DNA of 56,951 nt from Jaapia argillacea MUCL 33604. Taxonomy: Eukaryota > Basidiomycota > Agaricomycetes > Jaapiales > Jaapiaceae. Each line of letters starts with the position of its first letter. The stretch's first letter is position 1. The DNA lies in assembly GCA_000697665.1 (NCBI GenBank), contig KL197718.1, forward strand, positions 161,869-218,819. The letters are read 5' to 3'. Below the pieces are notes generated by a model, which was not told the DNA's origin, made no database searches, and worked only from the letters and a program-made list of their open reading frames with translations. Shown here piece by piece: positions 5,355 through 56,100 of this stretch. The translations under genes were made by a program, and so were the position numbers.

Positions 5355-7941
5355 TTACATCGGATAGAAACCAGGGTGGTGGAACTGAGGGAGGACGTTT
5401 GGTGGCCGTGACTGTCGAGGGTCGGGGGGAGCAGAGGGATGGGCGTGGTGTTCGTAATGTGGAAAAGACCTGTTCCCCGGCTGAAAACTCATCGACGGGT
5501 GAGACCCATCGACATAAACTGGCATCGCTGCGTGTCCATAATATGGAAGGACTGGTGGGGGAGCATATCCAAGGGGTGGATACATCCCACCTCCGGCAGC
5601 AGGTCCAACAAGACCTGGGAAACCAGGGGCACCGCTAAGACTAGTGTCATAGTAGGCAGATACACCTTGAGCCTCCCCGTATTGATGAAGATGCTGTGGA
5701 GGATTCGGATGGGGAAAAGGAGAAGAAAGAGGAGGGCCTGGGAGGAGTGTTGGTAGTATCGGTGTCCTAGAAGTTGGTCGACTTGTACCACTCTGCGAAT
5801 AACGGCTTCGACCAGCTCTCCGATGACTAGTAGGTCTCGTAGCTCCGTCGAATCCGTCAGGCTCAGAGGGAACTGAAGTCGCCTGTCCAGTAGGAAGGTC
5901 AAACGGTCCCATGGTATATGCCTTGGACGAGCTTGCTTCTGTGAAAGACCGTAGTGGCATCGGTTCTGAAGCCTCTGTACTACTGTCCAAATCCATGTCA
6001 CATTCGGAGTTCACCTTCTTCTTCTTTTTCTTCTTCGACTTCCCCTTCTTTGAATGTGACGGCTCCAGAGATAGCTCTGATGTTTGACGGACTCCAGAGT
6101 CATCGCGCTGTTCTCGTTTTCTCTTTTCCCCACCTCGGATCCCAGCGACTTCTCTGGAAGAAGACGGCACAAAAGGACTTTGATACCCAAGCGGAGCCTC
6201 TTCTCCCCGAAAACGAATGAACTCCAAAGCGCCTTGGTCTGCAGCGAGACACAGCACGGCGAGTTTGGAATCATGCTTGTTGCGATATTCTGCTGGGACT
6301 CTGAACTTTCGAATGTCGTTAGGAGCAGGGTTCATGGTTGACAGGAGGATCGTCAAAGAGCAACCGTATGCTGAAATGGTAGAAGTGGCGTCAGCTTCAC
6401 CAAAAGGGGGAGTGCGAATCGGCTTACCGTCCATGTCCTTATGGTGCTCGAATTCCATGCCACCCTGAGAGACTTTGTTGAGTTCGCTCTGGAGCATGGG
6501 TAGAATGCGTTCATTTGCAAGCTTCCTCATCTCTGAGGTCAGCTTCTCCTCCACTTCTCGCACTATAGACCGAATATGGTCACCAGCGCCTTGCGACATC
6601 GCCAGAAGGCATACAGCTGCCTTGGCGTCAGTGCGTTTCGAGAAGACCGCATCAACGAGGTGGGTTCGAACTGGCGAAGATGGTCGGGAGATGCGAAGGA
6701 CACAGCCATAGTCTGAGATACAAGAACAAAACTCAAAACATTAGTTATTTGAAGGACCGTGAAGACAGGACGGTGGACTGACGGGGAATACTTCCTGGCA
6801 CCCCGTGGGTAGTCCAAATGAATTTATGACTCAGGCGACCACCTCGAGCAGACTGGATCAAAGAGTTAAGCCAAGCTGGGGCATTGACCTCGGCGGCTGA
6901 TTTGTCACCCATATCTTCTGGTAAAGGCCTCGGGAGGGAATCGTAGAAGCTTTGGAGAGCGACAGTACAGGCATCTTCGGAGCCACGGTACGTATCAGAA
7001 CCCTCTGAGGGTAGAGAAGGCTCCGCTCGACCGTTCTGTTGGTGAATAAATTCCAAAATCCCCTGGTCGATAGCGAGCGTCGCACACGCTCGCTTGGCTT
7101 CGGCAAATGTTGGGTGTACGGTGTCGACGGAATAGACTCTAAAGCAATGTGGCGAGAGAGATATCTTCAAGGCAGAACCATACGCAGCTTCATCCGAGTC
7201 AATGTCGCGATTCCTAAGTTGAAAGTAACGACGTACCGACTCCAGGCTTACTCTCGCTAAGATATACCCATTGCAGGGCGGCAAATACACCTTTCCGTTG
7301 TTCGCAAGATTCTTCTATCTGACGAATAGGACCATCAAGTTGATCACAATCAAGCGATGGGGAATCGTGAGGCAGCTCTACTTCCCTTGACTCGAGGGCA
7401 AGGGCACTCAAGGGGATTGGATCGGTCCCACTCTTCCCGGGACGGTCGGGAGAATCTCTATTAGAGATGAATTCAAGGGCTCCCATGCGTAGTGCGAGCT
7501 TGGTAACCTGGGTTTTTGCTGGATCTTGTCGAGTATCGGATGGAGTGGAAGTATACGATCGTGAAATCCCATCCGGACGTTTGATGGTCAGAATGCATCT
7601 TGAATCTGTCAGCCTTGAGTGGATGTCAACTGATACGGCATCGATTAGAACGTACTCTTCAGGTTATCTCCTTCAATGAATTCGAAATCCAAAGCTTGAA
7701 ACCGGCCAAATTCGCTCTGACAAGCTTTGTATAACAGAGCAACTCCTGGCTCTTCGTCCTTCGCCTCCAACTGCGGTGTCATAGTAGTCGCAATGACCTG
7801 AGTACCATGGTCGCGGTTCTCGAGGATGTCTTCGGATCTGAAGTATTGACCGAGTGTTAGAGCGCCCAATGCGACGAGACTCCTGGTGACGGTCGAAGAA
7901 GCCAGGTCGGTTTTGGGAGTGGCGGCAGAGGAAGCGCCCAT
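5355..7941 (-). CDS. Four-module dsRBD-like protein with disordered tail
   Basis: Unrecognised protein of 778 residues. Exons 7941-7656, 7605-7252, 7187-6792, 6712-6428 and 6370-5355 total 2337 nt and stay in frame to TAA at 5355-5357. Four times over it has an amphipathic helix and strand (ALLYKACQSEFGRFQALDFEF; IRQIEESCEQRKGVFAALQW; WLNSLIQSARGGRLSHKF; the LPMLQSELNK region), then an intron, a YG-x-x-L-x-I strand (RCILTIKR, AYGSALKI, NYGCVLRI, AYGCSLTI), a second strand, and a helix of the form AK-x-A-x-x-x-LA-x-x-x-G-x-LEFI (KLALRMGALEFI, TLAIDQGILEFI, LLAMSQGAGDHI, CLAADQGALEFI). This alpha-beta-beta-beta-alpha order resembles a degenerate double-stranded-RNA-binding domain (inference). 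All four internal introns are phase 1. After about residue 500 comes a lysine-rich NLS-like block (KKGKSKKKKKKK) and a Pro/Gly/Tyr/His-rich disordered tail. The start is ATG at 7939-7941; the frame upstream has no ATG. Confidence 0.8.
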
Positions 7942-8492: not shown

Positions 8493-10728
8493 CTATTTCT
8501 TCAGACTAAACACCCCCTCGTACCACTGAATCTCCTTTTCCAATGCCGTCTTGATATTCTCTGCTATGCGCCAACCATGACCCTCGCCCTCGAACAAAAT
8601 GTATTCGACCTTCCCGCCACGTTGTTCAATGTCACGAACGATGGCTTCCGCTTGTTCAGGAGGCACGACCGCATCAATGGATCCTTGCAGGATCTGTGTC
8701 ACTCCATGAGCAAAAGTCTTATCTCGGTGAATCCAATGGTGTGCACGATACCCACCAATAAAGGCGACGTGATCTTGTCTGCATTGAAGACTGGTGACCT
8801 CTCCCTGAACACCTCCGGGATCTCTTTTGGTGTTCCTCCGACCAATTTTTCGAGGTACCTTGATTCCATCTTGTGCGTATCCTCACAAAGCTTGCGAAGG
8901 TCGGTTACACCATAAGAGGATGTTCCCGTCGCAAAAGTGTGCGGGGAGAAGCAGAGTAACGCCAGCGTGGTGAATCCCCCTGCAGAGCCACCCCTGATCG
9001 CGAGTCGTTTGGGGTCAATCAATGAGTAGGGAGCGGTTGACAAGGCTCCGACTGCTGCTACGGTATCTTGGACGTCCACGATGCCCCATTTTCCCACCAA
9101 CCGATCACTCGTGGTGAATAAGTCCCCGCAATCGATAAGGAGGCAGTATATAGGACTCACATATACCGACGGCCATAGCATGACGAACCACCATAGTTAA
9201 CGTCAAGCCTAAAGAAAGCGAATGAACAATGTAAGATCGGCAGGTGGGACTGGCGAAGTGCTCACCAAGCAAAGCCCCTACTAGTGAAATACTGCTTGCT
9301 CCAATCCAAACCTTGACGTTCGGCGTATGTTGGCCCGCCATGCACATGCACCACACAGGGAGGTTTCTCCCCGGCAATGCTCGTTCCCGCATAATCGGGG
9401 TTTGTCGGTGGATAGAAAACCACATAAAGAGGCTCACCGCTCGGCGGGACCTTCAGGGCGATGGGTTGCGGGACGGAGATTATGGACGGCGGGAAAGCCG
9501 ATTCGGATTCGCCAGCAGTAGATTTCAGGATGCTGAAGCTTGCGTGGGCGTTGGAAATAGTGCCAAGGACAACAGCAGCAGCCTCGGTACTCTTTTTGCC
9601 CATAAACACAACTTGGTTCCCACTTAACCTTCGCAGGTATTCCACTTCAGCATAGGGACATTCCACCTCCGTTATAGTGCCGCTCTCCAACCTGATAAGA
9701 TAGAACACACTCCTTCCGTCTCTGTAGGAAGTATAAAAAGTCTCCTCGCCTTCCAGAGATGCACCATAAGACCAGCCTAAAAACCATGCCGGACTACTGA
9801 AGTCTTCTGCAACGGGTGAAGGGAGGACGGGTCCAGCCTTTTTTTCGGTCAAGGAATACTTCCAAGGGTTGTGGTATCCCGAAATGTCCGAAGTAAAGAC
9901 CAGCAGATTGTCCGAAGTCCAAAATGGATAAGCAACGCTTATATCCGCTCGTTTCCCCGCAACATATGTCGGAGAAATGATCGACAATTTCCCTTCGCCG
10001 TCAATTGCAACGGTGCCGACATGAATCTCGGATCCCTCCCAAGGCATGTCGGGGTGGAACCATTGCTGCCAGGCGAGATGCTTGCCATCGGGTGAGAAAC
10101 GAGGACAATTGTAGAAATCCGCGCCAGATATGATGGTATAGACGGTCTTGGACTGTGTGTTCAAAACGGCGAGAGTGGTGACAACGTCGGCGGGCAATGG
10201 ATTGGTGTGATCTTCCAAAATCGCCACTAGGAGGTGAGGATACTTCGGGTGAACAGTGAAATCTGCGAAGCGATGGTTCTTATTATCTTCACTTATCGTC
10301 AGTCTCGCGATGAGTTTGAAAGGAAATGAAACACACCCGGAGTGATCGGCTCGGGTTGACTGCCCTCCTTCACAGCATAGACGCGATTGTCGGCAAAGTG
10401 TGAAAAGTACAGCACACCGCCATGCACAATAGAGGCTGCGCCTCCATACTCTTGAACACCGCTCCTTACATCCCACTCCGGGCCAAATAAATCCTTGGCA
10501 GATTTGGTGTTTACCACAACGCTTCGACCACCTTCGGAAGGTCGGTCTTCCAGATGATACACAGTGGATGATACTGGATCGACCAATACATCGCCAATGT
10601 TGATGGACTGTCAATCCTTATCAAATGGTGAAGGGGGGCCATGGAGGAGGAATGAAGCATACACTCTTTGTCAAGGCTTCTGCTGTAATTGGTGAAGACC
10701 AAGTTCCGTACGGGGCAGTCTTTGGCAT
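8493..10728 (-). CDS. S9 family serine peptidase, tandem copy 1
   Basis: Prolyl-oligopeptidase-superfamily (S9) peptidase, about 630-650 residues, probably cytosolic because no signal peptide is seen. The N-terminal half is beta-propeller-like (FTVHPKYPHLLVAILEDHT; FYNCPRFSPDGKHLAWQQW; KYSLTEKKAGPVLPSP). The C-terminal alpha/beta-hydrolase half carries CVVHVHGGPT, LDVNYGGSSCYGR, the nucleophile RGGSAGGFTT, the acid GSIDAVVPPEQ and the histidine EGEGHGWR, so the Ser-Asp-His triad is complete. TAG is at 8493-8495. The start MPKTAPYGTW (ATG 10726-10728) is chosen because the downstream paralogue starts there; an in-frame ATG three codons upstream (10735-10737) is possible. Introns: one after TKS, one near 10270-10330, and three in the hydrolase half at positions shared with copy 2. 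It probably cleaves N-terminal dipeptides or acyl-amino acids from peptides (family knowledge). Confidence 0.9.
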
Positions 10729-11275
10729 GTTTGGCATTCAGCGACGAGCACTTCGTTCTGGTGTTAGTGAGCAGTGGGTGGGTGGAATGTAACAATTGAC
10801 TCACACACCAAGACTCACATGTGGTATAAATATCGTGTAAAGATGCATCGATTTTGCGAACCGCATGACACCTAGCGTGTTATCTCCAAACGATCCCGGA
10901 GAGCGAGAATAACGTGGGGGATAAGTCACCGGCGAGCCTACTTCTCCTTGGAGTGAAGCCAGTGGACTGCACCATTGAACCATCATGTCGTTGAGTCCCA
11001 TTCTCTGTGCCACGGGACATAGACTTGTTAAGGCGTCTCTCGTACACAGACTTCACAGACGAGCGATTCCCTGTGCATGGAGTACTGAGGGACTGACTGA
11101 ACAGTGCAAGAGACGGTCGCTAGTCAAATTGAAATTCACGAAAAGGCACTCAGTACTGATAACAAACATCATTGCTACCGGACGAAAGGCCAGTGGTGTA
11201 GGTGCACAGACAATTACTTCTAATATACAGCATGTGCAAAAGATAGTACAGCTTGCTTCACCTACTTCGCATTCT
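10729..11275. other. Intergenic between tandem S9 peptidase genes
   Basis: Contains the promoter of copy 1 (reading leftwards) and the 3' flank of copy 2. Short open frames here lack family signatures. Confidence 0.45.
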
Positions 11276-13502
11276 CTATTTCTTGAGCCCAAACACCTCC
11301 TCATAGAATTGAATCTCCTTCTCCATCGCAATCTTGATATTCTCGGCCTTACGCCACCCATGTCCTTCACCCTCAAACAAGATGTACTCGACTTTACCAC
11401 CACGCGCTTCGATATCCTTGACGATGGCCTCAGCCTGTTCGGGGGGTACGACCGCGTCAATGGATCCTTGCAAGATCTACCATCTCGTCAGTAAAGCGAC
11501 ATCGTTGGGGACGGGATAAACTCACCAACAAAGGTGACATAATCTTGTCGGCGTGAAAGACAGGTGATCTCTCCTTGTAAATCTCCGGAACTAGTTCTGG
11601 CGTTCCACCAACCAACTTTTCAAGATACCTCGACTCAAATTTGTGCGTATCCTCCGCGAGTTTTCGGAGGTCCGAGACACCATAAGACGAAGTGCCTGCC
11701 GCAAATGTTGCTGGGGAGAAACATAAAGCTGCAAGAGTGGTGAACCCTCCTGCAGAGCCACCCCGGATGGCGAGCCGTTTTGGGTCAATCAGCGAATGGG
11801 ATGGGCCAGACAAGGTTTCGACGGCGGCGACGGTATCTTGGACGTCGACAATACCCCATTTCCCAACCAAACGATCACTTCTAAGAGTTAATCCCGGTGG
11901 TCGCCAGAGTGAACTATATGGGACTTACGTATAACGGCGACCATACCAAGACGAACCACCGTAGTTGACGTCAAGCCTGTAAGAAACGAACCAGCAGTGA
12001 GCAAAAGGGCAGTGGTGCGATAGTAGGTCGCTCACCAGGCGAAGCCCCTGCTGGTAAAGTACTGCTTCTTCCAGTCCAATCCTTGAGGTTCGGCGGAGGT
12101 GGGTCCACCGTGTATATGCACCACACAAGGGGGTTTCTCCCCATCGATGCTCGTCCCAGAATATTCAGGATTTCTAGGGGGATAAAAGACCACGTAAAGT
12201 GGTTCACCGTGTGGTGGGACCTTGAGCGAGAACGGTTCTGGTACAGATATGATAGAAGGTGGGAAGGCTGAGTCGGACTCTCCAGCAGTCGATTTCAGAA
12301 CAGTGAAGGTGGGCGAAGTCTTGGAAATGGTGCAAAGGACGACAGCAGCAGGCTCGGTGTCCTTTCGACCCATGAACACCACCTGATCTCTACTCAATCT
12401 CCGAATGTACTCCACTGTCGCATACGGGCACTTCACCTCTTCCAGGCTGCCGCTCTGTAATCCAACAAGATAGAAGACGTTCCTCCCATCCCGATATGCT
12501 GTAAAGAAGATCTTCCCAGACTCGAGTGGAGCGCCATGAGACCACCCCATGAGCCACGAAGGGCCGTTGAAATCTTCAACAACAGGCGAGGGAAAGATGG
12601 GTACAGTTTGTTTGTCGGCACAGGAATACTTCCAGGGGTTGTAGTATCCTGAAACGTCCGAAGAAAAGACCAGGATATCATCGGCAGTCCAAAACGGATA
12701 GGCAGCGCTAATATCTCCACGTCGGCCCGCAATATAGGCTGGGGCGGCGATGGAAAGCTCCCCTTTGGCGCTGACTACGACATCACCAACGTGGATCTCG
12801 GATCCTTCCCAAGGCATATCGGGATGGAACCATTGCTGCCAGGCAAGATGTTTGCCATCGGGTGAGAATCGAGGAGAGTTGTAGAAATCTGCGCCAGATA
12901 TGATGATGGAGACCGTCTTTGAGTGCGTGTTTATCACGGCAAGAGAAGTGACAACATCTGCGGGCAGCGGATGGGTGTGATCTTCCAATATCGCGACTAG
13001 CAGGTGCGTGTGCTTCGGATGGACAGTGAAATCGGCGAAGCGATGATTCTTGTTGTCTTGAAAATATCAATTAGTCTCCAAAGCGACTAGGGGACGAGGG
13101 GGAAGGAACACACCTGGGGTGACTGCCTCCGGCTGGGCGCCCTCCTTCACAGCGTACAAGCGGTTATCGGCAAAGTGAGATAAGTACACTACACCGCCGT
13201 GCACGATAGCTGCGGCTCCTCCATACTCTTGGACGCCAGTCCTAGCATTCCACTCCGATCCAAAGACATCCTTCTTAGATTTGGTATTTACGACGACGCT
13301 TCGACCACCTTCGGTTGGTCGATTTTCGACATGATACACGGTTGATGTGACCGGATCGATCAACACGTCGCCGATGCTAATAGACTGTTGCAGCTGATCA
13401 GATGGTGATTCTGCACAGAGAGGGATTGAGACGCACGCTTTTTGTCAACGCTTCTGCTGTGATTGGTGAAGACCAAGTTCCGTAGGGGGCAGTTTTGGGC
13501 AT
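11276..13502 (-). CDS. S9 family serine peptidase, tandem copy 2
   Basis: Paralogue of the neighbouring S9 peptidase with the same exon plan: MPKTAPYGTWSSPITAEALTKS, a propeller exon set, then the hydrolase exons. The triad is intact: RGGSAGGFTT, GSIDAVVPPEQ and EGEGHGWR. TAG is at 11276-11278 after FGLKK. The ATG at 13500-13502 is the only in-frame Met near the conserved N terminus. Intron positions agree with copy 1: after TKS, inside the TPGV region near 13070-13110, at AW/LDVNYGG, at RRY/SDRLVGKW, and before ILQGSID. Intron sequences and third codon positions have diverged strongly, so the duplication is not recent. The two copies are separated by 547 bp and transcribed in the same direction. 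Differential expression or substrate range is possible but not visible here. Confidence 0.9.
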
Positions 13503-28623: not shown

Positions 28624-31600
28624 CTAGCCCATCACACTCGCTAACAAGGCCATTCGCACCTGGACAAAATGCTAGTTAGTCGTTCGTCGAGGGAAGATGG
28701 GGTGTACTCACAAACAATCCGTACCGCATCTGACGGAAATAAGCAGCACGGCGAGAGTCGAAATCCACCTCTGGGTCAATTTCTGTTCAGGATAGTTGAA
28801 CGAGTCAGCGAGATAAGGAAAGAAATCAACTGGGAGCTCACCGTTAACGCGTGGAAGAGGGTGCATGACGATCATGTCCTCCTTCGCGCGAGCTAAAACG
28901 GCATGATCGACTCGATAAGCGTCTTTGACCGCCTCCCATGCCGCCTCGGTTTCAAACCGCTCTTTCTGAACCCTCGTAACATACAGAACATCTGTATCTT
29001 CTAATACGTCCTCCAGGGACTCGTATTGCTTCACAGGGACGCCCGCTCGGCGTGCCGCGCTTACTACGTTTGCAGGCATGGAGAGAGATGCAGGGGAGAC
29101 GAAGTTGAGACGGACAGAGTACAAGCAAAGCAACGTCACCAAACTATGCACAGTGCGTCCGTTTTTCAGGTCGCCCAGCAAGGTGATTGTACGGCCGTTG
29201 ACGGTCCCGAGTTCAGATCGAATGGTATACACATCCAAGAGTGCCTATGAACGGATTAGAAACATAAATATGGCGACAAGGGGAAGGCGTACTTGGGTCG
29301 GATGCTCGCCGATACCGTCGCCTGCATTGATGATCGGCACAGGAGAGAACTTGGCAGCAAGCTGAGAGCTGCCAACTTCAGGATGACGAATTACGATGGC
29401 GTCCGCGTAACACCCGAGGGTTCGAATAGTGTCCTGCAAAGTTTCACCCTTGGTTACCGAAGATGTCGTCGCGTTCACTTGCACAACCTCTCCACCACAA
29501 CGTTTCATGGCCGCATCGAATGATGCACTAGTCCGCGTGGATGCCTCATAGAACAACGTGCATAGCACTTTGCCTCTGAGAATGTCAAGTGTTCCGTTCC
29601 TCTCGACCTGTAATTGCATTTCATGGGCGAGAGAGAACAGGTCATATAGGTCGCGAGCGGTGAACTGCTTGACTGACAAAATGTGTCTGCGGTGGAAGGC
29701 AGGGTGCGAGGTGACGTGTGACAGTAGGAGTGATGAGGAGGGAGGTCCATGGAACAAAGGAACTCCGGCTGGACCCTGTAGAGGTGACATTGGGGTAGGA
29801 TGAGTTACTCCATCTGCGCCCCTCTGCCCAAGGGATAAGTCAGGTCTTGCACCGGAAATTGATGCTGCCCTCTCAGTGCGCCCATGAACGATTGTGGAAC
29901 TGGAAGTATCTCGACCTGATGGAGAGAGTGTCAGAGCGCCATCGAGGAATACGGTCTGGCCGTGGACGACAACTCGGTGAACTTCTCCAGCGACAGCTAC
30001 ATTGTCCAGAGGAGACCAATAATGTGCTCCATCGCTATAGAGGGATCGTCTGCCGACTACAACTTCGACATGAGTGTGAACTTGCTCGGGAAGGTTGAAG
30101 ATGCGGAGCGGATTGTCGTGTAAGCGATCCTTGATGTCTTTGAGGGATAAGCGACCTTGAGAGACGGCAGTGAGGAGCAAAGGAAGGGTTTCCTTAACTC
30201 CCGACCAGGGGGATGCACTCTTCTTCAACTCCGAAGCAAGTTCGTAAGGCGTCGATCCGATGGAGAAGGCGTCCACAACATCCAGGTTCTTCCATAACGA
30301 TGCCTGATCATCTGAGGATGGCAAGCAAGTGGAACCTGGGAATTGTTCTCGTGTAAAGAACAGTGCATAAACGGATACATCGCAGGTAACCTTCAGGTGC
30401 TTGGCTTTGCTGAGGGAGATAAGGAGGATATCCTCCTTACTTCGAACGCCAGATACGTGAATGCTACGTCCGTGCAAACTAGCCAGCAGGAGGACCGAGG
30501 CCAAATCAGAACCCCTGGCATCTGTGACGATAAGTTTATCTTCAGGCCAGGATGTGAAGTGAGAGGCGACAACAGAGACTTGAGTGGACACGCTGTCTTG
30601 GAAGGGGATGAACAAGTATTTCACATCTGCTTGGATTTCCTCGTCGAGGGACTTAACATTGCCAGCCGATGCCGAGACGCTGAGAGCGTAATTGCAGTAG
30701 GCGGAATCTTTCGCGTTAGCGCGAGCTTGGTCGAGAGTACGGTCATCGACAATGCGATCGTCGAGCCCAACAGGAGTAATCAAAGCCGTGGTGAATCCTG
30801 CAGAGATGAATGCCTTGGTAGCTTCAGCGAAGTCACGAGAATTCTTGGTGGTCAGTACCGGAACGAAACCTGCAATGTTGATTAGACCCGGGAAGATGTA
30901 AGTGTCGTGTGAGGTCTTGAAGTCGACGGAGGATACGTCCAAAGGCAGCCGTCGCACAAGTGCTTCGACAAGCAACTTAGCACACTTGACATTGGTTATA
31001 AGGGGGATGGCGAAGTCGACGGCCATACGACGGGTTCGATATCCCTTACTAGCATAGCTGGCGGGGCGACGATAGTGGTTCTTGGAGGGCAGATTGATGT
31101 ACATGTCAATGAGGTTGTTTGCAAGGTGCTGAGTGAGATCATATTCGGACTTCGATTTCGCGGTATTATCTTCGCCCAAAGCCTCAAGATACTATCGAGG
31201 AGATGAGCACGATGAAAAGAATAAAGTGGGAGAAGTGGATACCTTGCAAGGCACATTATGTTCGGCCAAGAAGTCGGCTGTACCAGAAGTGGCAAATATG
31301 TTGTAACCAGCTGCGTGAAGCTTCTGCACGGATGGCAAGAGCTCTAGTTTCTCTTTGTAGCCGCCAATGGAGAACAAAACGTTCTTCTTTGGGGGAACGA
31401 TGCCCGTGGAGATGAGGGCTTTCAAATACGCCTCGTATTTGTCCTTGCCGAAGCATGCCACCTCGCCAGTCGAAGCCATCTCGACGCCCAAGATGGGGTC
31501 GGCACCAGAGAGGCGACTAAAACTGAACTGGGGTACCTTGACGCCAACATAATCATTTGGCAGGCCCGGGTCGGGGTATGGTTCAACAGGAATCCCAAGC

Positions 31601-37739: not shown

Positions 37740-39108
37740 TTAGCCTTGTCGCATAAAAAACAGTGGATGAGACGAGTAGCAGATAGAATCGGTGGAGAGT
37801 GGGAGATAGTGAACTGAAATCAGCGGAGCTCCTCTTGGACTATCCAAGACAGCTGTTAGTGCGAACCTGGGTCGAATCAAATCCGGCGCACCAAGTTCCG
37901 AAGACTCGACCATGGGATGTGCCTCTCGCAAAGTCTTGACAGCAATAGAAACGCGTTGATCCACAGTATTCTTGCGAAGATACTGTTGAGTATGTGTTCC
38001 CACTTCGCCCAATTTGTCCCAATCGCCCAACGACACGCTCTGCAACCCTTGCTCCACATTGAAACGAAAGTAAACATCTGGCTTGTCCCTGAAATGCTTC
38101 TCCAAGTCATCCGCCGTACGTTCACAATCAGTGGCGATATCTCGCAAAGCCTGAACGACTTGCAACGGAAGTATGTTCTGAAACATGCCCGAAGATTTTG
38201 GAAGCTTGATAACGTGTGCTTGACCGCTCCCGATACTGATAATACAGGCAATGGATCGCCCGGGGAAAATGAGGTCAGCTTCTTCGATGACTCGCATGGT
38301 CGGGTTGTTGTTCCCAAGCCCAGCATCCACAAAACGCTCCTTCACCGTGTCTCCAATATCGATAGGTTTGAAGAAGGTAGGGGCAGCGGACGTCGCTCTG
38401 GCTGCTTCCCATATAGTGCAATCGTAGCTTGCATTTTTCGGTGAGGGGTAAGTGCGGAAGAGGCGGGGGATGGAGGCGTTCATGTTGTCAGCCGCCATGG
38501 CACAGACGAATCTAATTGTCGATCGGTGTCTAGCACGCGAAAGGATCAGAGACGAGAAACTCACGTCTTGCAAACTTCCTTTTCAGGCCGAGGATCCAAC
38601 ATTCGAACTTCAGGGTTTGGTGGTGAGGTTGCCTTCCCCACGATATCTTTGATAGCCTTCTCCAAATTGGTTTTCTTGAACATACCATCTTGTCCCATCC
38701 ACTTCTTCTCCGAAAATACGCTTTCCGCTAACCGACCATAGGCGGCAATGGCCTCGTCGACGGACATCCGAAGACGACCAAGCATGAGTGCTATGAAACT
38801 GCATGGTGAACTGACATCAACATCCTGTCCTACGAGGGAGGAAAGGTAGAGATACGAACCCGCCCGTGCTCGTCCCACCGATGAGGTCAAAGTATTCACA
38901 AGGAAGCGGAGGGCTCGGTAGTTTATCCTGATGCTGGATTCTCTGCATCAACTCCCTCAACACCAGCAACTCGGACAAGCCACGGATTCCGCCACCATCT
39001 GATGAGTGAATCAGTACGGGTGTACTACAGGGACTAGTGATCGACGATGAGAGACGTACCAAGAGAGAGCAGTCTTAATCCTCTTGGTTCCTCTGCGTGA
39101 ATTGCCAT
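37740..39108 (-). CDS. Patatin-like phospholipase, cassette copy A
   Basis: Ser-Asp dyad lipid acyl hydrolase of the patatin/iPLA2 superfamily. ATG at 39106-39108 gives MAIHAEEPRGLRLLSLDGGG. The DGGGIRGLSELLVLRELMQR motif (oxyanion hole) is completed across the first intron, and FDLIGGTSTGG contains the GxSxG nucleophile. After the second intron come FIALMLGRLRMSVDEAI and MDPRPEKEVCKT-like sequence; after the third, FVCAMAADNMNASIPRLFRT, WEAARATSAAPTFFKP and FVDAGLGNNNP, the DG/A catalytic Asp. The C-terminal part is VYFRFNVEQGL and KNTVDQRVSIAVKTL. The 3' end is uncertain: the open frame runs to 37740, but a splice near DSPRGAPL would give a different tail. Adjacent to the P450 in the same orientation. 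Substrate unknown; most relatives release fatty acids from phospho- or galactolipids. Confidence 0.87.
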
Positions 39109-45172: not shown

Positions 45173-46662
45173 TCAACCAATAAAGCGAGCCTTCAGCAGG
45201 TGCGCCAGTGCGCGGCAGGCAGTTTGAGCGATCGTATGCAACATTTGTGGGCTATTCGACGACTCTGGTACATACATATAGAAAAACCAAAACGAATAAT
45301 AACGCGACATTGGCCTAGTCGCGTGAGACAAGTAGATAAAAGTAGCAAATAGAATCGGTAAGGAATGGGAGACAGTCAGCGGAGCTCCTCTTGGACTATT
45401 CAAGACATCTGTTAGTACGAACCTGGGTCGAATCAAATCCGGCGTACCAAGTTCCGAAGACTCGACCATGGGATGTGCCTCTCTCAAAGTCTTGACAGCG
45501 ACAGAAACACGTTGATCCACGGTATTCTTGTGAAGATACTGCTGAGTATGTGTTCCCACTTCGCCCAGTTTGTCCCATTGGCCCAACGACACGTTCTGTA
45601 ACCCTTGCTCCACATTGAAACGAAAGTAAACATCTGGCTTGTCCCTGAAATGCTTCTCCACGTCTTCCGCCGTACGTTCACAATCAGTAGCGATATCTCG
45701 CAAGGCTTGAACGACATTCAACGGAATAATGTTCTGGAACATGCCTGAAGATTTTGTAAGCTTGATAACGTCTGCTTGACCGCACCCGATACTGATAATA
45801 CAGGCGATCGGTCGGCCGGGGAAAATGAGGTCAGCTTCTTCGATGACTCGCATGGTTGGGTTGTTGTTTCCAAGCCCAGCATCCACAAAATGCTCCTTCA
45901 CTGTGTCTCCAATCTCGATAGGTTTGAAGAAGGTAGGGGCCGCAGACGTCGCTCTGGCTGCTTCCCATATAGTGTAATTGTAGCTTGCATTTTTCGGTGA
46001 GGGGTAGGTGCGGAAGAGGCGGGGAATGGAGGCGTTCATGTTGTCAGCCGCCATCGCACAGACGAATCTGATTGTGGTTCAATGTCTAGCACGCGAAAGC
46101 GAAAGGATCAGAGACGAGAAACTCATGTCTTGCAAACTTCCTTTTCAGGTCGACGATCCAACATTCGAACTTCAGGGTCTGGTGGTGAGGTCGCCTTCCC
46201 AATGATATCTTTGATAGCCTTCTCCAAATTGGACTTCTTGAACGTTCCGTCCTGCCCCATCCACTCTTTCTCTGAAAATACACTTCCCGCCAACCGACCA
46301 TAGGCGGCAATGGCCTGATCGACGGTCATCCGAAGACGCCCAAGCATGAGCGCTATGAACCTGGATTGTGAACTGATATCAACATCCTGCCCTATTGGGG
46401 AGAAAAGGCGGAGATACGCACCCGCCCGTGCTCGTCCCACCGATGAGGTCAAAGTATTCACAAGGAAGCGGAGGGCTCGGTAGTTTATCCTGATGCTGGA
46501 TTCTCTGCATCAACTCCCTCAACACCAGCAACTCGGACAAGCCACGGATTCCACCACCATCTGGTACGTGAATCAGGACTATAATGACCGGTAGTCAACG
46601 ATGGGAGACGTACCAAGGGAGAACAGTCTTAATCCTCTTGGTTCCTCTGCGTGGGATGCCAT
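45173..46662 (-). CDS. Patatin-like phospholipase, cassette copy B
   Basis: Paralogue of the patatin gene at 37740-39108 with identical exon layout. ATG at 46660-46662 gives MASHAEEPRGLRLFSLDGGG; the nucleophile GGTSTGG, FIALMLGRLRMTVDQAI and FVCAMAADNMNASIPRLFRT follow. FVDAGLGNNNP supplies the catalytic Asp. Differences from copy A are mostly conservative (SVDEAI to TVDQAI, IDIGD to IEIGD, SIAVK to SVAVK), and all splice sites are retained, so both copies look functional. The open frame extends to 45173 and would encode a longer C terminus than copy A (through MSRYYSFWFFYMYVPESS). The tails of the two copies are unrelated after DSPRGAPL, so the true stop or last intron is uncertain. The promoter lacks the perfect palindrome of copy A. 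Confidence 0.85.
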
Positions 46663-53100: not shown

Positions 53101-56100
53101 TGATACCAATCGGCAACAGTACAGGTACACACCAAATCAGTCCTGGCAGCTCAAGGCAACTGTACTCCCTCCTGCCAGCCATGGACTAGCTGGGAGATGT
53201 TCCTGTTGGGGCAGCCCCACCATCCTCCAATATCACTCAAAATATTGCCCCCTCTTTCCAACAATTTCCCTTCAAAGATATCTCAGACAACGTCCAAGCC
53301 TGAAAACGCTCCCTTGGTTTACTCAGCTTAAGCTTGGGCAATTTGATTCTGACATGTTCTTATTCTTCTTTTGCCTCCTCCTTGCTGCTGTTATTCTGTC
53401 AGTTGTCAGTCTTTGGTTCATTGCATTTAGCCATCTCTGCCGTATTGCTTCCTCTGTGAGTGTGACATCCTGGATCACTCGCAGGCACCTTATCGCCCAG
53501 ATCAGGTGGGCTGATTCCGAGGCTAGTATCTGGAGTAGTCTCGACGCCCCTTTTGACTTCGCGTTGACTCTCCTCCCTCCTTGGTCTGTGCCTGTATTGT
53601 TGCCTGGGGGCCTGACCTTCAGGGATCCACTACCCAGTATCATTCCGATCGTCAGTTGTGGCCACTCTCCATGTTCCATTGGCCACAGGCCTCTTGCCAG
53701 GCCCCATATTATTGGGCCTTCCTGAGCATTGCACTTCAGCAGAATGTGTTCCATCAACTCCTCTTCATCCCTGCATACACCACATGTTCCCCTTTGCTCG
53801 TAGCCAGGTATGTTCCTCCAGTATTCTCCTATCTTCTGGGTTTGATGGATTGAGAGGAACAGGAACTGCCAGATTTTAAGTTGGATGTCCAGGTTCCTGC
53901 ACCCCTTCCAGATTGTGCTGTCCTTTGGCAGCCCGCCAATGTGTTCCTTCAGGGCATGTCTGGTCATGTCCAGTGAGGTCATTGTGCGTCGTCTCTTGGG
54001 TTTCTCCTTTAGCTCCCTGATCCCTTTGTAAGCAGTGGCCTGGGTTATCATGGCCAGTTTCGCTCCATGAAGGTGGAAGCTGACAGGGACTGTCAGGTCA
54101 ATTTTGTCGGCCTGTTCCTTCTCGGCGCCTTCATTTGCAAGTCGGTCTGCACCCTCATTTCCGGGTACTCCACTGTGTCCTTTGACCCAGTGGAAGGCTG
54201 TGGTAGCTGACCTGCGGCGCAGCTGATATGCAGCTGCTTGGAAATACTCCTTGTTTTCAATTCCTATCCATCCTCAGTCTTCCCACTCCCAGAGGTGCTT
54301 GGTTAGGCCGTCGATTACATACAGTGAGTTGGTTACAATTGTGACTGGCTGGAAGTTGTCAACTGACTGGAGGTAGCATATCACCACTACCAGTTCCCCT
54401 ATCTGGTTGGAGTGGACCATGCCTGGGACTTTGATCATGCAGTTCCTAGCATCATTCTCTCTGAACCACACACCACTCTCGCAGTATGCATCTGCCTGTC
54501 CATTGTTCATGCAGGACCCGTCTGTGAAGATCGTCAGGTGTTCGTGGGCTGTGTTTATTCCCCCTACCTGTGCATGTAGTCTGTATGCCGGGGGGGTCCC
54601 AGGGTTGGCCCCCCCTGTGAATATTCTAAAGCCCTCTGATAGGTCCTCCTTCAGTGTCACTGAGGGGTTGAATAGGATATCCTCCTTGCACCTTCTTGTG
54701 TAGTCATTTCGACAGATCCGTTAGTGCGTCAGGGACAGGTTGTTGCTATGTGGGTGTTCGTTTGGCACGTATTTCAGGGTGGAGCTTTCCAATCAGTCTG
54801 CGGGCTTGCTTGGCACAGGCGTGGGGTTTCACACATCCTAAGGTTGTCCTATCATGGGAGCACGCGGTGCAGGTGCAGCCGTCTGTGTTGGTGTGGGCAT
54901 TCTGGCCAGGCGTGTCAAGTCTCCTAGTTACGAGCAGCAGGTCCCATATCAATACCACTTTGTGGTTCCCCCTGAGACACATATCAAACTTGTCGTTGTA
55001 TGCCCATTTAACTGCACTGAGGTGGGCCCATGCAGGTAGTTTCTCCTTTGCCTGCTCCCCTAGTTTGAGGGCCTCAAAATTTACCCCCAGCTTCTTCACT
55101 GCCCTCAGCATGTTGAGTATGTCTTTTGGTAGCCTGTTTGCCTTAGCGCCACGGGTTGGTGTGTTCCATGTTTGCAGGAATGAGTTGAGCCAACTGCTGC
55201 TTGCTATGCCCTCAGGTTCCAGCCTGTTGATTATCACATCTGTTACAAAGGCCCATGCTGGCCGGTTGGGGCCCATGTCAAGGTAGCGTTGTAACCAGGT
55301 TATTTCTATGGCCATGTTCCTCGATGCAATGTCTAGGAGGCCAATTCCGCCCTTGTCTTTCGCTAGGTACAGTGATTGTAGTGCGATTGGGGGGGTATGT
55401 CCCACACCCCATATGAAGTCCCAAATCATTTTTTCTATCACATGCTTGATTCCTTTGGGCATACCCTGAACTTTTGTCAGGTACTGGGTCATTCCTCCCA
55501 CTATCATTTGGATGATGAGCCTTTTTCCTTCTATGGTCAGATGTCCTTTCCCCCATTGCTCAAGGTTGCTGTGTATCCTATCCAACACCGGTTCCCAGGG
55601 AGAGGCACCGTCCACACCATTCCCTATCCACATGCCGAGTGAGCATACTGGATCATTTTCGTCAGCAATCTTGATACCATCGTTGAGTGGTTGATCATCT
55701 GGGTGGATTTTCCTTGTGTGTACAACTTAATCTCTGTGGCCCTTCATTCCTATGGGGATAATCTCAGTCTTGTTTATGTTGAACCTGGCCCTGGACACCT
55801 GGTACCATTTTTGGAGAACACTCTGTAGGTTGTGGTATCAGTCATTTATGTTGAGGTAGACCATGGCATCATCCGTGAACAGGTTTATTAGGAGCTTCCA
55901 TGTCAGTCCAGGGATTTGGTAGCCGGCTAGCTTGTCTGAGTTGCGGAGCATGCATGCGAGGGGTTCGATGGCTAAGTCAAAGAGGAGGCACGACAAGGGG
56001 TTGCCTTGACAAATGCCTCTGGTTACATTAAACAGCTCACTTAGGGTCCCATTTATTATCACCCTGGTCTTCACAGACGTGTATAGGGCTTCCGCCATGT

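Follow-up and report, generated by a model that had tools for sequence, protein, structure and literature searches.

What is a fungal protein for that consists of four similar modules in a row, each interrupted by an intron at nearly the same point? This question is raised by a gene on the minus strand of a 56,951-nucleotide (nt) stretch of Jaapia argillacea MUCL 33604 (contig KL197718.1, positions 161,869 to 218,819; the whole stretch is called the window below). An original prediction made from the sequence alone had read the modules as divergent double-stranded RNA-binding domains (dsRBDs) of a new RNA-binding or protein-interaction family. We conclude that the observation is real and unusual, and that its interpretation was half right and can be sharpened to the protein-binding branch of the dsRBD superfamily. 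With a probability of roughly 0.5, we read the protein as a multivalent protein-interaction scaffold of four modules of the DUF283 or type-B dsRBD sort, along with which the intron was multiplied.

Four repeated modules, each split by an intron

Segments were cut around the four intron junctions, and their pairwise scores were compared with those of 2000 shuffles. All six module pairs outscored 2000 of 2000 shuffles (real scores, 50 to 70; shuffle maxima, 46 to 50), which rules out chance as the source of the repeats. The other modules are 22 to 27% identical to module 2 in the alignment, and the duplications therefore look old. The junction precedes the conserved Leu codon of strand 2 by 14, 17, 14, and 14 nt in modules 1 to 4; the introns enter the modules at the same point to within one codon. 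When four introns were placed at random 2,000,000 times, the observed agreement was never matched, and chance was ruled out here as well. The simplest account is that a unit was duplicated with the intron already inside. The two motifs that had been ascribed to each module occur in three of the four: LAxxxGxLEFI is complete except in module 3, which ends in GAGDHI, and YGxxLxI is replaced by SRCILTI in module 1. The latter motif, said to follow the intron directly, does so in modules 3 and 4 and begins one residue later in module 2.

The modules are encoded by a predicted gene (7941-5355) of five exons, whose coding sequence of 2337 nt runs in frame from ATG to TAA and specifies 778 residues; a script reproduced this model as first proposed. 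The start ATG is the first in frame past an upstream stop. All four introns are of the GT-AG type and in phase 1 (codons 96, 214, 346, and 441), with the junction codons A/AT, A/CT, A/AC, and G/CA confirmed. The internal exons (354, 396, and 285 nt) are each divisible by 3, which bears out the idea of a symmetrical unit that can be duplicated without loss of frame. Counting all frame-keeping GT-AG pairs of 40 to 120 nt near each intron gave 7, 10, 6, and 4 pairs for introns 1 to 4, including the chosen pair, which in our judgement appears to have the most typical sites. The best rival donors of introns 2 (+15) and 3 (+9) likewise give phase 1. Intron 4 is in frame and free of stops, and coding potential alone therefore does not require it; its sites, its position, and the disorder of the read-through in the structure model support it. 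On these sequence features, the five-exon model is very probably real.

Fold of the modules and their closest relatives

Structure prediction and a structural search had been proposed as checks of the dsRBD-like order of helix, three strands, and helix. In the best of five models, module 4 was predicted with the complete alpha-beta-beta-beta-alpha order. The model of the exon-3 unit agreed in part: it has two strands and a helix in module 2 and, where module 3 begins, a helix followed by a strand at low confidence. A search with VIA-align gave 43 dsRBD or Dicer entries, by title, among the 50 rows listed; the top row among these 50 was an ancestral Dicer construct, aligned over its DUF283 stretch. 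The other seven (T7 Gp1.2, YcaO, and protein Y) were taken as matches to a common arrangement. The models make it likely that the modules have a dsRBD-type fold.

Searches of family databases did not place the protein. The Pfam profile dsrm (PF00035) matched neither the whole protein nor any of the four modules at E ≤ 10, and an ordinary Pfam dsRBD was rejected for this reason. The DUF283 profile (PF03368) did not match the modules at E ≤ 10, and its search of the genome (43.7 Mb, 95 contigs) returned three other places and not this gene. The single Pfam match, TPR_Vps41 in module 2 (E 0.066), was set aside as below the cut-off (12.8 versus 27 bits). There were no NCBIfam matches, and the single PHROGs match (E 0.36) led nowhere. 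In the PDB, a sequence search with the array found nothing, and one with the module profile gave six chance-level matches (best E, 0.72), none of them a dsRBD. Queried with the whole protein, with two of the modules singly, and with a consensus module, the genome returned this gene only, and a paralogous family member was rejected at the imperfect sensitivity of the consensus, which recovers three of its own four modules. Relatives among viral contigs (queries: the module alignment and a 461-residue frame) and prokaryote contigs (query: exon 3 only) were likewise rejected, as none was confirmed. The excerpts of the literature matches listed contain no account of a fungal protein of this four-module layout.

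Profile comparisons with hhalign were made against two sets, namely, six DUF283 sequences (the three Dicers of this genome, the ancestral Dicer, human Dicer, and DCL1) and a mixed set of 8 type-A and 3 type-B dsRBDs. The four modules scored 28.5 against DUF283 (probability 54, E 1.3e-4, 74 columns) and 25.0 against the mixed set (probability 41, E 2.9e-4, 65 columns). They thus appear to compare slightly better with Dicer DUF283 than with dsRBDs, which points to protein binding. The DUF283 score was reached by none of 150 column shuffles (maximum, 17.2); the mixed-set score was reached by none of 200 column shuffles and none of 200 block shuffles (maximum, 21.3), and reversal gave 10.6. Type A alone gave a probability of 16%, and the three type-B fragments alone gave 0.2%. 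As yardsticks, DUF283 against the mixed set gave 92 and type A against type B gave 89, and the modules therefore lie further out than the known branches lie from each other.

The strand-2 pattern [LV]x[LI] is found in 4/4 modules, 6/6 DUF283, 2/3 type-B, and 0/8 type-A sequences, and a Cys placed two residues beyond the aromatic position in 3/4, 3/6, 3/3, and 0/8, respectively, counts that were made on small sets after viewing the sequences. A 4-residue gap in the DUF283 alignment indicates that the modules have a helix 2 shorter by roughly one turn. The three Dicer DUF283s of this genome lie in open frames. In one of them (C51), an insertion between strands 1 and 2 contains no frame-keeping phase-1 GT-AG pair and one of phase 2, and an intron in common with this domain was rejected; the module intron is therefore not shared with the Dicers.

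Protein contact or RNA contact

The claim that the canonical basic residues are mostly lost was confirmed. The GPxH loop between strands 1 and 2, sought as G[PAL]xH, is absent from the entire protein, and none of the four modules has both of the preceding lysines of the KKxAK motif at the start of helix 2, of which AK is kept in modules 1 to 3 and SK stands in module 4. Taking a type-B domain as a dsRBD fold without residues contacting double-stranded RNA (dsRNA), the loss of residues holds for the whole protein and the fold is predicted for module 4 only. Behind the modules, a lysine block is a possible candidate for a nuclear-localisation or RNA-contact patch, and the tail, whose composition (17.2% Pro, 13.0% Ser, 9.2% Gly, and 5.0% Tyr over residues 541 to 778) is that of a probably disordered region, suggests together with the block a role in localisation or condensates.

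Passages of two articles describe DUF283 as an alpha-beta-beta-beta-alpha motif that binds cofactors such as HYL1, DRB4, and ADAR1 (PMC7827160; PMC12663654), and passages of a third state that type-B dsRBDs lack RNA-binding residues and bind to other proteins as well as to themselves (PMC5716075). From this behaviour we infer a multivalent protein-docking scaffold. Its four modules would be divergent members of the dsRBD superfamily that have lost the residues gripping dsRNA and resemble the protein-binding branch. Each would present the face formed by its sheet and helix 2, on which a further dsRBD-like domain could pair, and targeting of the assembly to nucleus or RNA granules would be aided by the lysine block and the probably disordered tail. 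Module 3, with its net charge of +7, may retain a degree of affinity for RNA. The array would have grown by duplication of a unit in which the intron already separated strands 1 and 2. We lean towards modules that bind protein rather than RNA; they might dimerise, and the protein might be tied to the RNA silencing proteins of the genome (three Dicers, several Argonautes, and RdRPs). A link to Dicer or RNA interference is doubtful.

Several results weigh against the scaffold reading. The best of 150 block shuffles scored 28.2 against DUF283, close to the real 28.5, although none of the 150 reached it. The DUF283 probability drops to 7 without module 2 and to 11 without module 3, and that for the mixed dsRBD set falls to about 2.5 once module 1 or 2 is removed, with no single module above 2.6. 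Moreover, human DUF283 anneals nucleic acids according to passages of PMC7827160, and a DUF283-like fold is therefore compatible with RNA contact.

A rival reading is a protein of the Staufen/DRB type that has diverged and in which dsRNA is bound by the four modules jointly, the charge coming from module 3 and the lysine block. The predicted fold does resemble RNA-binding dsRBDs (ADAR2, HYL1, and DRB4), a lysine run follows the modules, and module 3 has a net charge of +7 and, close to the KKxAK position, a KR pair. Such a protein is nevertheless improbable given the loss of GPxH and of the KKxAK lysines, a strand 2 of the DUF283 and not the type-A pattern, and the 16% match to type A alone. 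RNA binding, the other half of the original proposal, is not established, with net charges of -1, -5, and -1 in modules 1, 2, and 4.

The modules could also be DUF283 itself, copied out of Dicer, multiplied, and now binding Dicer or its dsRBD partners in trans. The best profile match is indeed to DUF283 and foremost to the three Dicers of the same genome (29.8, probability 59, n = 3; the three other sequences gave 19.8 and 5.5), module 3 alone reaches a probability of 35 (other single modules, ≤3.1), and the strand-2 pattern and the top structural row among those listed point the same way. This origin is unlikely, however, as DUF283 leads the dsRBDs by a small margin based on three to six sequences, PF03368 does not recognise the modules, helix 2 is shorter, and the Dicer DUF283s lack the module intron. 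A function that has nothing to do with RNA silencing is less probable still, as the profile alignments run in the expected register through the module and above all column shuffles, and the 43 of 50 structural rows listed belong, by title, to one fold class. A further version of the scaffold reading, in which a Dicer docking domain was freed and brought to four copies by duplication of an intron-split unit within fungal RNA silencing, with the lysine block and tail setting the location, is speculative and no likelier than a copy of Dicer DUF283. If it were true, one chain of freed DUF283 modules could hold several Dicers or dsRBD cofactors.

Genomic surroundings and comparison with known systems

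The features of the gene are compiled in Table 1.

Table 1. Predicted features of the four-module gene, with positions counted in the window
Feature	Position	Strand	Description
Exon 1	7656..7941	-	286 nt; start codon at 7941, N-terminus, first part of module 1 (helix 1, strand 1)
Intron 1	7606..7655	-	50 nt, phase 1, GTACGT...GACAG; retention breaks frame
Exon 2	7252..7605	-	354 nt; remainder of module 1 (strands 2 and 3, helix 2), linker, first part of module 2 (helix 1, strand 1)
Intron 2	7188..7251	-	64 nt, phase 1; alternative donor at +15 nt, also phase 1; retention breaks frame
Exon 3	6792..7187	-	396 nt; remainder of module 2, linker, first part of module 3
Intron 3	6713..6791	-	79 nt, phase 1; alternative donor at +9 nt, also phase 1; retention breaks frame
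Exon 4	6428..6712	-	285 nt; remainder of module 3, long helix, first part of module 4 (helix 1, strand 1)
Intron 4	6371..6427	-	57 nt, phase 1, GTAAGC...TTTCAG; multiple of 3, without stop
Exon 5	5355..6370	-	1016 nt; remainder of module 4, lysine block, tail, TAA
Module 1	7451..7770	-	residues ~58-147, spans intron 1; net charge -1
Module 2	7033..7366	-	residues ~176-265, spans intron 2; net charge -5
Module 3	6558..6906	-	residues ~308-397, spans intron 3; net charge +7; best single-module DUF283 match
Module 4	6204..6542	-	from residue ~403, spans intron 4; net charge -1; predicted alpha-beta-beta-beta-alpha-alpha
Lysine block	6015..6050	-	residues 548-559, KKGKSKKKKKKK
C-terminal tail	5358..6014	-	residues 560-778; rich in Pro, Ser, and Gly, with aromatics

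The three DUF283 places of the genome (C51, C7, and C1) are Dicer-type loci (L015, L016, and L032). Two of the three Dicer frames, scanned with Pfam, carry Dicer_dimer and RNase III domains, and an RNase III match lies about 1.3 kb from the DUF283 on C1. Of the four dsrm matches in the genome at E ≤ 0.001, none lies near these places. Elsewhere, at L002:1-1827 (minus strand), a dsRBD shares a frame with DEAD and Helicase_C domains. Argonaute gave 14 matches in five clusters and RdRP 25 matches in eight clusters (our grouping), and RNA silencing genes are therefore present in this genome.

The neighbouring genes give no hint of function. Directly upstream, pieces of prolyl-oligopeptidase (S9) and PD40 (8496-13066, minus strand) suggest at least one S9 peptidase gene, and two frames on the other side have no Pfam match. 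Two patatin-like phospholipase stretches (37743-38582 and 45376-46144, minus strand), the first of which matches PF01734, share 92.5% DNA identity over 769 bases, which indicates a recent local duplication. OTCace_N and MGS domains lie in one frame at 29248-31191 (minus strand), presumably as in the fused carbamoyl-phosphate synthase/aspartate carbamoyltransferase gene. An RNase H match with a sub-threshold zf-RVT match (53326-54273, minus strand) is perhaps a retroelement fragment near the window end.

To our knowledge, cofactor recruitment by the many fungal Dicers without a detectable dsRBD has been little studied. By HMMER, 1825 of 2911 fungal Dicers (62.7%) have neither PAZ nor dsRBD domains, as given in a passage of PMC12663654. 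A protein of DUF283-like or type-B-like modules would be a concrete candidate partner for those without a dsRBD. With an intron placed regularly in every module, the history of duplication can also be read from the gene structure.

Among known systems, DUF283 gives the best profile score and the best structural row among those listed. Here, however, the modules form four tandem copies below Pfam detection, in a 778-residue protein without an accepted Pfam domain and outside the helicase/RNase III context of a Dicer, and they have an intron between strands 1 and 2 and a shorter helix 2. Type-B dsRBDs (domain 3 of Loqs, TRBP, and PACT and domain 5 of Staufen) share with them the strand-2 Cys (3/3 in our set), the lack of RNA-binding residues, and probably the dsRBD fold, but adjoin RNA-holding type-A dsRBDs, of which none is recognisable here, and the profile probability with the three fragments by themselves is 0.2. 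Staufen, TRBP, and the HYL1/DRB proteins likewise carry several modules of dsRBD fold per chain with linkers between them; in contrast, the J. argillacea protein has no dsrm match, GPxH, or complete KKxAK, and combines a Pro- and Ser-rich, probably disordered tail and a lysine block with one intron at the same site of every module.
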